This document shows, in pieces, positions 3,550-27,336 of a stretch of DNA of 64,000 nucleotides (positions are counted from its first letter, which is position 1; every line of letters starts with the position of its first letter). The stretch covers positions 1 to 64,000 of the forward strand of contig NZ_JMPI01000063.1 in assembly GCF_000735355.1 (NCBI RefSeq), given 5' to 3'. The stretch is from Buttiauxella agrestis ATCC 33320 (GTDB lineage: Bacteria; Pseudomonadota; Gammaproteobacteria; Enterobacterales; Enterobacteriaceae). The notes below the pieces were generated by a model. The model was not told the origin of the DNA. It did not search any database and saw nothing but the letters and a program-made list of their open reading frames with translations. Made by a program: the position numbers and the translations under genes.

Positions 3550-5085
<1,536 letters not shown>

Positions 5086-5636
5086 TCGGCGACGCCCCCA
5101 GGATGAGCTCTTTTAGTCATATCAATGTGAGCCAGGTGAAGGTTCCGTTCACTTAATTTTCAGTGGTTTATATAGCCACCGAACCGGTGAACGTGCAAAG
5201 GGTGCTACCGCAGCACCCTTTGCAATCCCGGCTCCCGGCGTTTAAATCGCCGGACTCAAAGGTCAACGTCAAAAGCTAAGGTCAAAAGCCGAACCGGCTT
5301 TGACCTTGTTCCCGGTATAAATTGCCCCAGCGTTACCCATAAGGCAGGGTTGAGCTGCCGGGAGCAGCGAAAGAGAGCGATCGCCGGGAGCGAGTCGCGA
5401 ACGACCCTGAACGTTGGGGATAAGCTGGGGTTTACCGCGCAGCGGCAATTTAATGGCCGGGCGCCAGGATTATCAAGGAGAGGGCGTTCTCTCCTTGATA
5501 CGGTCACCGTTAACAGTGGTTGCAGAGATAACCAGACGTTCGGGTGAACGGAAAAACATCTCATCTTCCAGATCTCACCCTGGCAAGATCGCCAGACTGA
5601 GATCTGTATAAGAGAAAGACCAGCCGGGTAATCCCC
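5086..5636. other. 551-bp hairpin-rich non-coding region
   Basis: The gap between the convergent patA and lsrG holds no recognisable gene. It contains at least five inverted repeats: 5194-5224 (13-bp perfect stem), 5235-5253 (CCGGCG/CGCCGG), 5278-5307 (12-bp stem with one bulge), 5471-5500 (12-bp perfect stem, 6-base loop) and 5569-5606 (8-bp outer plus 5-bp inner stem). The first can act as the patA terminator. The rest are more structure than termination needs. Short open frames at 5350-5547 (+) and 5256-5564 (-) lack a convincing start or family. Confidence 0.6.
5194..5224 (+). terminator. hairpin after patA
   Basis: A perfect 13-bp stem (TGCAAAGGGTGCT and its complement) around the 5-base loop ACCGC, 108 bases after the patA stop. 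There is no T-tract on the plus strand, so intrinsic termination would be weak; it could instead protect the 3' end. Confidence 0.4.
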
Positions 5637-5927
5637 CTATGGCAATAACCCCACAAAACTCCGTTTCTTACGCGGTTCCGACATCATCCCGTCCAGCTTC
5701 TCAACGCACGCTAAGTAATGCGGCGTCTGCTTATGCGCCAGCACTGCTTCGTCGTTTTGATACGCCTCGTAGATATAAAACCGTGTCGCTACATCCGGAT
5801 CCTGCAACACATCGAAACGCAGATTCCCCGGCTCGTTGATTGACCCTTCGTGATTGGCGCGGAACACATCCATAAACTCATCGACCCGTTCCGGTTTGAT
5901 ATTAATCTCCACCAGCGTCACATTCAT
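5637..5927 (-). CDS. lsrG: AI-2 degradation monooxygenase-fold protein LsrG
   Basis: A 96-residue dimeric alpha-beta barrel (ABM) fold protein that acts on phospho-AI-2 after LsrK, before thiolysis by LsrF. The sequence aligns with E. coli LsrG over its whole length, including the central FDVLQDPDV and FYIYEAY blocks and HY at the TPHYL motif. It is the last gene of lsrACDBFG here; no tam gene follows. The ATG at 5927 overlaps the lsrF stop by 4 bases, so translation is probably coupled. Confidence 0.92.
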
Positions 5928-6814
5928 GCCTTGCCTCCATGGTGTTTTTCATCGAGCCAGAACTGATACGCTTCCCGGGCCGAAACATTCTCATGCACCA
6001 CTTTTTTCACCGCTTTTAACATCGCAAGCGGTGCGTCTGACTGGAAGATATTGCGCCCCATATCCACGCCCGATGCACCCTGGTCAATCGCCCTGAAACA
6101 CATATCCAGTGCTTCTTGTTCCGGCAATTTTTTACCTCCGGCGATAACAATCGGCACCGGGCAACTGGCCGTCACTTTCTCGAACCCTTCTTCAACAAAA
6201 TAGGTTTTCACAAACTGCGCCCCGATTTCTGCGGCAATTCGGCTGGCAAGGGAGAAATAGCGCGCATCTCGCGCCATCTCTTTACCCACACCAGTGACGG
6301 CCAGGGTCGGGATCCCGTAGCGCGTGCCTTCGTCCACCAGCTTGATAATGTTGTTGATCGACTGATGCTCGTATTCGCTGCCGATATAAATTTGCGCTGC
6401 CACCGCGCAGGCGTTCAGGCGCAGCGCATCTTCCATCGTCACCGCTACACTTTCGCGCGACAGTTCGCTGAGAATTGAATTCCCGCCCGAGGCCCGCAAC
6501 ACCACGGGTTTGTTCGTGGCTGGCGGCACCACGCTGCGTAAAATACCGCGCGTGCACATCAGCACATCGGTTTCCGGGAACAGCGGCGCAATAGATAAAT
6601 CGATACGTTCAAGGCCGGTGGTCGGCCCCTGGAAATAGCCGTGATCGAAGGCCAACATGACGGTGCGCCCGGAGTCGGGGTTAAATATCCGCGCCAGGCG
6701 CGATTGCATCCCCCAATCCAGCGCCCCGCTGCCTTTCAGGTAGAACGCTTTGTTCTCCTGAGGGCGGCCAATGCCGTAATCTTTACCTTCTCTGATATCG
6801 TCAAGATCTGCCAT
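5924..6814 (-). CDS. lsrF: phospho-AI-2 thiolase LsrF
   Basis: A 296-residue class I aldolase-like TIM barrel that transfers an acetyl group from the LsrG-processed phospho-AI-2 intermediate to coenzyme A. The N-terminal [18 protein letters not shown] and the central [10 protein letters not shown] block match E. coli LsrF. The Schiff-base-type lysine region ([10 protein letters not shown]) is present. A strong GGAGGAAAA Shine-Dalgarno precedes the ATG at 6814. It lies 10 bases downstream of lsrB and overlaps lsrG. Confidence 0.92.

Positions 6815-25821: not shown

Positions 25822-27336
<1,515 letters not shown>

Follow-up and report, generated by a model that had tools for sequence, protein, structure and literature searches.

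The gap between patA and lsrG in Buttiauxella agrestis ATCC 33320 very probably holds a large MITE of the IS50/Tn5 type, a non-autonomous DNA transposon present here as an old, decayed copy. All coordinates refer to the window, the stretch of 64,000 nucleotides of contig NZ_JMPI01000063.1 that was analysed. The element is dispersed, its copies share ends, 9-bp duplications flank some of them and relatives carry element-free sites, the pairing within the copies is conserved, and the window copy has decayed. Rather than an RNA gene, it seems to be a new form of a well-known class of element, and a conspicuous non-coding island is explained as a mobile repeat. Among the matches listed in the literature searched, we found no published description of the Buttiauxella element family. 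The original prediction had named an RNA gene, a non-autonomous mobile element or a remnant as candidates. Mobility is upheld by the copies, shared ends, duplications and empty sites, and "remnant" fits the window copy, which has a decayed left end and an internal deletion in its left half; the RNA gene is the part that found no support.

The genes around the gap are listed below.

3556 to 5085, plus strand: patA, a class-III aminotransferase (Aminotran_3), the upstream neighbour; the listed open reading frame (ORF) may begin upstream of the true start.
5637 to 5927, minus strand: lsrG-like gene (ABM domain), the convergent neighbour.
5924 to 6814, minus strand: the next gene past the lsrG-like gene (DeoC domain).

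We take the ORFs with Aminotran_3, ABM and DeoC domains to be patA, lsrG and lsrF. The patA stop lies at 5085 (plus strand) and that of lsrG at 5637 (minus strand), and the gap between them contains strong inverted repeats. Both the convergence of the neighbours (3556–5085 on the plus strand, 5637–5927 on the minus strand) and the absence of a gene had been read correctly. The longest ORF inside is 102 amino acids, and five scanned ORFs gave a single Pfam match (E 0.052), which is below the cut-off; no transposase gene was found in the window copy by this ORF list and Pfam scan.

The abundant structure ascribed to 5225–5636 is likewise real. This stretch folds at -180.7 kcal/mol, whereas 100 dinucleotide shuffles average -135.0 (sd 6.1) and never reach its value (z -7.5). 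For 5104–5621 z is -9.1 on the plus strand and -12.1 on the minus strand, and on neither strand did any of the 100 shuffles fold to so low an energy. The idea that the stretch is merely a decayed gene or chance structure was rejected owing to the dispersed homologous copies elsewhere in the genome, the lack of a Pfam match above the cut-off in the five ORFs, and three folding comparisons in which none of 100 shuffles equalled the real sequence. We found no point in its favor and give it practically no credence.

Four inverted repeats had been reported within 5225–5636, two of them with 12-bp stems. All four are present, and the stems differ from that description in that one is a perfect 12 bp and the other is 16 nt long with mismatches.

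5226–5239 with 5357–5370: inverted repeat, 86%.
5318–5332 with 5438–5452: inverted repeat, 87%.
5471–5482 with 5489–5500: inverted repeat, 12 bp, perfect.
5569–5584 with 5591–5606: inverted repeat, 16 nt, 88%.

The limits had to be redrawn. The unit extends from about 5106 to 5618 and so starts about 120 bp before 5225, and the perfect 13-bp hairpin at 5194–5224, earlier attributed to patA, is a helix of the repeat itself that lies inside the element. The parts of the window copy are as follows.

5106 to 5618, plus strand: the complete type A element of about 513 bp, oriented so that its short arm comes first; delimited from own-genome copies and by comparison of its arms with those of B. agrestis elements.
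5106 to 5142, plus strand: left arm with a decayed Tn5/IS50-like terminus (AGCTCTTTTAGTCATATCA versus CTGTCTCTTAGTCACATCT).
5143 to 5553, plus strand: inner palindromic module, TTCCGTTCAC...GTGAACGGAA, 411 bp in this copy.
5194 to 5224, no strand: module 5' hairpin (helix 4) with a perfect stem of 13 bp; both sides have changed in 8 of 12 consensus pairs.
5248 to 5249, no strand: approximate junction of the internal deletion, from alignment A1.
5278 to 5307, no strand: central hairpin, AAGGTCAAAAGCC...GGCTTTGACCTT.
5311 to 5461, no strand: right branched arm, outer stem CCCGGT/GCCGGG.
5471 to 5500, no strand: module 3' hairpin (helix 22) with a perfect stem of 12 bp; both sides have changed in 8 of 11 consensus pairs.
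5554 to 5618, plus strand: right arm, which contains a separate hairpin (5569–5606) and has a Tn5/IS50-like terminus (reverse complement CTTTCTCTTATACAGATCT).

The element ends at 5106 and 5618 were set by eye on the Tn5-like terminus. Compared with the arms of 15 B. agrestis elements, the left arm is identical at 24–29 of 37 positions and the right arm at 45–51 of 65. Against the arms of a single element (L178) the left arm scored 11 (best of 500 shuffles, 6) and the right arm 30 (best of 500 shuffles, 3). The window copy lacks columns 109–242 of alignment A1 (134 columns) and thus most of the left branched arm. A convincing target duplication was not seen at this copy, CCCAGGATG and ACCAGCCGG agreeing by eye at 5 of 9 positions.

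Copies elsewhere, for which a search had been recommended, are plentiful. The window's own genome contains the repeat at 8 distinct places, the window included, and the larger pieces (query 5086–5640) are 71–85% identical. When a full own-genome copy was used as query, matches at E 1e-4 were obtained in 10 of 11 genomes of the same genus, in 2 of 24 other genomes of the bacterial family and in none of 24 genomes from other families of the order. A 27-base core pattern matched 37 stretches in the named genome collection, a scan that may omit the window's own genome, and all 37 were Buttiauxella. Note that palindromic copies match themselves on both strands, so that match counts exceed the number of places.

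Module ends were paired in own-genome and named loci with at most one mismatch per end (15 of 44 loci gave no pair). The inner module is 539–550 bp long in 16 of the 30 end pairs, the rest spanning 54–623 bp. The module is nearly palindromic, as copy L032 shows by matching its reverse complement at 70% along the full length. Two kinds of arms, type A and type B, enclose the same module with the same ends. Type A copies, that in the window included, have outer arms of 37 or 51 bp and about 65 bp, most of which end on the left in CTGTCTCTTAGTCACATCT or close variants and on the right in CTGTCTCTTATACACAACT (reverse complement). Shared ends are seen both in the Tn5-like termini of type A copies and in the recurring module ends. 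A 16-base end pattern (at most one mismatch) was present in all 12 genus genomes, and a control pattern was found once in total. Type B arms read by eye as TATGNC...GGTGATT, for example at L032 2020-2048 and in L098 (CTATGGCGGAGCGGTGATT abutting TTCCG); no duplication could be read for this type. In four named species (L097, L099, L107 and L128) the module sits at apparently one shared locus beside GACATGTCATTTCG, which suggests that some copies are old and inherited.

Conserved pairing was assessed in alignment A1, which comprises the window copy and 23 others, namely all but L178 and L181 of the 25 copies that are 500–560 bp long (the 25 represent 23 distinct sequences). The consensus fold of the 24 aligned copies is multi-branched and has 151 pairs. 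Most of the measures of covariation, another check that had been proposed, exceeded the shuffles. Standard pairs filled 98.2% of cells versus 90.8% in shuffles and 31–45% with the partners slid, and both sides had changed in 44 of the 151 pairs and 300 cells (shuffles, 34.7 pairs and 101.4 cells), figures that come from related copies with non-independent cells and from a structure derived from the same alignment. The exception was the number of further standard pair types (87), which was reached by all 500 shuffles (mean 95.9) and argues against conserved pairing. An identical 28-nt hairpin occupies the left position in 2 of the 24 copies and the right position in 7, and since it recurs in both halves, whole-hairpin exchange may explain part of the covariation.

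This pairing with changes on both sides, together with the z values of -9 and -12, is what a structured RNA gene would display, the stretch being transcribed and the folded RNA acting in trans or in cis. On the plus-strand structure G-U pairs also outnumber C-A pairs (58 versus 11 cells), a count that is biased because G-U pairs had been permitted on that strand when the structure was selected. On the 157 pairs found from both strands the difference vanished (G-U 42, C-A 44 cells). This is a weak test, in that the RNase P control gave G-U:C-A ratios of 97:72 (22 rows) and 71:46 (30 rows), with a mean identity of 0.72 and some rows that were perhaps badly cut. The two strands of the element fold about equally (-393.3 and -391.9); those of RNase P differ more (-188.5 versus -173.5). 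No Rfam covariance model matched within 5040–5700 up to E 1, the single promoter-like match is on the minus strand where shuffles average 0.5, and the copies occupy unrelated loci. At the gathering score Rfam gave only one match in the whole window, Ysr276 at 26383–26577. That match to Yersinia sRNA 276 is full-length, on the minus strand, and scores 160.5 bits. We consider an RNA gene very improbable; strong pairing with changes on both sides can mark a mobile repeat instead.

The assignment to the IS50/Tn5 type comes from the ends. The IS50 subgroup of IS4 has the published end consensus CW------Y---CA-A--W-, with direct repeats of 8–9 bp (PMC2266710). By eye both ends of the Buttiauxella family fit this consensus, as does the right end of the window copy; its decayed left end does not. 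The family ends also resemble the mosaic end of Tn5, which serves as a sequencing adaptor. An adaptor artefact was rejected because the family ends differ from that sequence and have target duplications flanking them.

The Tn5-type transposase DNA-binding domain (PF14706) was found in none of the 12 genus genomes, and so no related autonomous element was found there. It was present in 12 of 198 genomes drawn from the bacterial family, a sample that took in Buttiauxella itself, and 11 of the 12 passed the cut-off. Another genome of that family has a 1,492-bp IS50-type element (L197) with ends CTGTCTCTTGATCAGATCT and CTGTCTCTTATACACAAAT, close to those of the Buttiauxella family, and a perfect 9-bp duplication. 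A 3.1 Mb genome of the same family (G181) gave 17 matches to PF14706. One locus of this genome (L198) has the exact 16-base left end of the element, CTGTCTCTTAGTCACA, be it the end of its IS or otherwise. Possible transposase partners thus exist in the bacterial family, but the search of the genus genomes revealed none. An autonomous partner in the same genome or genus is usual for a MITE and is not strictly required, as the partner can be lost.

Traces of transposition were sought in a B. agrestis genome (G008) with 18 forward and 23 reverse ends, 41 in all. By eye these form 16 inward-facing pairs 257–726 bp apart, none of them IS-sized, and leave 9 ends unpaired (2 forward, 7 reverse). Both inner-module ends are present in 15 of the 16 elements. 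Perfect target duplications flank 5 of the 16 (four of 9 bp and one of 11 bp), and in 11 of 16 the two flanks agree at 90% or more across 8–11 bp. The control, 240 mismatched flank pairs, gave 1 exact, 5 that were at least 90% alike and no exact 9-mers. A clear duplication is absent in 5 of the 16.

Sites without the element also exist. In 9 of 11 other genomes the two flanks of site L174 adjoin directly (the remaining 2 could not be read in this way). In 7 of the 9 the joined sequence forms a full hairpin, for example CTCCTCTCCTTTGGGAGAGGAG, and in the other 2 of 9 the sequence is visible in part; the hairpin is of the terminator-like kind CCCTCTCC...GGAGAGGG. Joined flanks had an inverted repeat with arms of at least 6 at 8 of the 16 B. 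agrestis sites versus 15 of 320 control stretches. The folding energy of joined sites gave a weak result, with z below -2 in 4 of 16 versus 7 of 80 controls.

The window site itself gave no clean empty allele. The patA–lsrG anchors are 551 bp apart in the window genome and 61 bp apart in G004, and in nine more genomes they enclose 1,027–1,243 bp of different sequence. Of these 11 genomes with both anchors, only the window genome has an element match at patA–lsrG; none was found in G004 and the nine others. In several of the nine longer gaps (L070–L078, L081) an ORF is visible by eye in sequence absent from both the window genome and G004. A further genome, G001, has no lsrG anchor on its locus. 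A short Tn5-ended relative can be seen there by eye directly after patA (L079, about 2010–2210), by shared ancestry or an independent hit.

A wider survey of gene context with a simple ORF finder placed 10 of 30 loci between convergent, 10 between tandem and 5 between divergent ORFs, with 5 unresolved; several are the same site in different species and the 30 loci are therefore not independent. The convergent loci, the window copy among them, and the conserved pairing would agree with a two-way terminator or cruciform between convergent genes that is kept by the host, whatever its origin. However, 5040–5700 contains no terminator-like site (stem plus T run) that a scan could find (shuffle mean 1.0), four of the five divergent loci seem to go back to a single ancestral site, and the element is present at patA–lsrG in just the one genome noted above. 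Moreover, the position would also follow from a preference for terminator hairpins. Retention by the host thus seems quite unlikely. A putative terminator or cruciform role is possible; most likely the element has no function beyond its own spread and is a selfish non-autonomous element.

Relatives of the module occur beyond the genus. Half-modules are found in E. coli, where an ECONIH4 half-module query matched 5,375 of 5,426 genomes, mostly over part of the query, at 1–9 places per genome (median 3). With the L032 query 4,106 of the 5,426 genomes matched, at 1–3 places each. The yegH–asmA gap of MG1655 has one half-module with the terminal motif. This motif, TTCCGTTCAC with one mismatch allowed, is found in the half-modules of L134, L135, L189, L190 and K-12 and is missing from the lysO–aqpZ copy (L191). 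By eye the motif is followed by GTGAACG and hairpin in that order, and the copies are mostly single halves. Half-modules or pieces lie in the yegH–asmA, lysO–aqpZ, proX–MFS and tauA–mmuM gaps of E. coli (L134, L135, L187–L191), with no annotated features under the match. Only CDS are annotated in the two stretches of the K-12 record that were examined. We presume that the repeat of yegH–asmA and the other gaps may be the "RSA" repeats of K-12. A Citrobacter freundii plasmid has two inverted halves by eye, and the window copy matches one C. freundii plasmid of the plasmid collection over 18%. L032 matched four E. coli records of the plasmid collection over 12%; at 4.8–4.9 Mb (three) and 1.4 Mb (one) these are not ordinary plasmids. 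No match to L032 was found among 50,697 phage records. That related half-modules are so widespread in E. coli (5,375 of 5,426 genomes) points to an old enterobacterial repeat.

Several points speak against the Tn5-type MITE: the decayed left end of the window copy with no convincing duplication, the want of a clean empty allele at its site, the failure to find PF14706 in the 12 genus genomes, the 5 B. agrestis elements with no clear duplication, the weak folding result for joined sites, and the occurrence of the same module with type B arms and in E. coli, which means that the module is not confined to Tn5-like arms. The true mobile unit could instead be the inner TTCCGTTCAC...GTGAACGGAA module, the Tn5-like element being one vehicle among other arms. 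The shared module and ends in type A and type B arms would fit, as would the diverged copies and half-copies in E. coli and the Citrobacter plasmid, in which we saw no Tn5-like ends or arms by eye. However, no duplication lies directly at the TTCCG/CGGAA junctions by eye, the flanks of type B are inverted (GGTGATT/AATCACC) as if they belonged to the repeat, and the measured duplications sit outside the Tn5-like arms. We therefore regard the module as a rather unlikely mobile unit. A related and still doubtful suggestion is that the palindromic module of about 540 bp is a portable cruciform unit that moves among unrelated transposon vehicles, its pairing being kept by hairpin exchange. The vehicles would be the Tn5-like arms, the type B arms and, in E. 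coli and Citrobacter, flanks of no recognised type, and whole hairpins would be exchanged between halves and between copies. The module may also help transposition, for example as a DNA cruciform.

The preferred reading, a Tn5-type MITE, would work as follows. In this family a near-palindromic, gene-free module, typically about 540 bp, is framed by two short arms that carry Tn5-like termini. An IS50-type transposase, to judge from the ends, would act in trans and cut the element at both ends. Movement would probably be by cut-and-paste with a 9-bp staggered cut at the target, and insertion would often be into the loop of GC-rich, terminator-like hairpins at gene ends. Owing to such insertion the element would often lie between convergent genes. 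The window copy is presumably no longer mobile. What emerges is a transposase-less Tn5-type element dispersed through a genus, often in terminator-like hairpins.

Among known systems, the E. coli yegH–asmA repeat resembles the Buttiauxella element in having half-modules with the TTCCGTTCAC terminal motif and differs in its mostly single halves and in having no Tn5-like arms by eye. ERIC/YPAL and other enterobacterial palindromic MITE-like repeats are similarly intergenic, dispersed, non-coding and able to fold (PMC2267715, PMC10969869). However, they are given as 127 and about 168 bp long with other copy numbers (PMC2267715), and the Buttiauxella structure is multi-branched. Copy numbers of 19–21, 22–32 and 301–485 are listed for ERIC, BoxC and PU-BIME in E. 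coli (PMC2267715). These lengths and copy numbers are not matched by the repeat described here, which has 1–3 (L032) or 1–9 places in E. coli, and the two are set apart by description. TIMEs and other prokaryotic MITEs are described as transposon-derived miniature elements (PMC4133298, PMC10969869), and the Buttiauxella element is non-autonomous in the same general sense; TIMEs are Tn3-derived in contrast to the Tn5-like ends found here, and the large palindromic module is an addition. ISPpu9, ISPsy8 and other REP-targeting IS also insert into extragenic palindromes (PMC1525189). Here the target is instead the terminator-like CCCTCTCC...GGAGAGGG hairpin and the ends are of the Tn5 type. The closest parallels in the ends are with IS50/Tn5 (IS4 family, IS50 subgroup). 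Unlike IS50/Tn5, the Buttiauxella element has no transposase gene, PF14706 was found in 0 of 12 genus genomes, many copies are in terminator-like hairpins, and the 16 B. agrestis elements measure 257–726 bp versus the 1.35–1.55 kb given for the IS50 subgroup (PMC2266710). The likeness lies in the end consensus, as judged by eye, in the 8–9 bp repeats (PMC2266710), and in the exact 9-bp duplications that flank 4 of the 16 B. agrestis elements.
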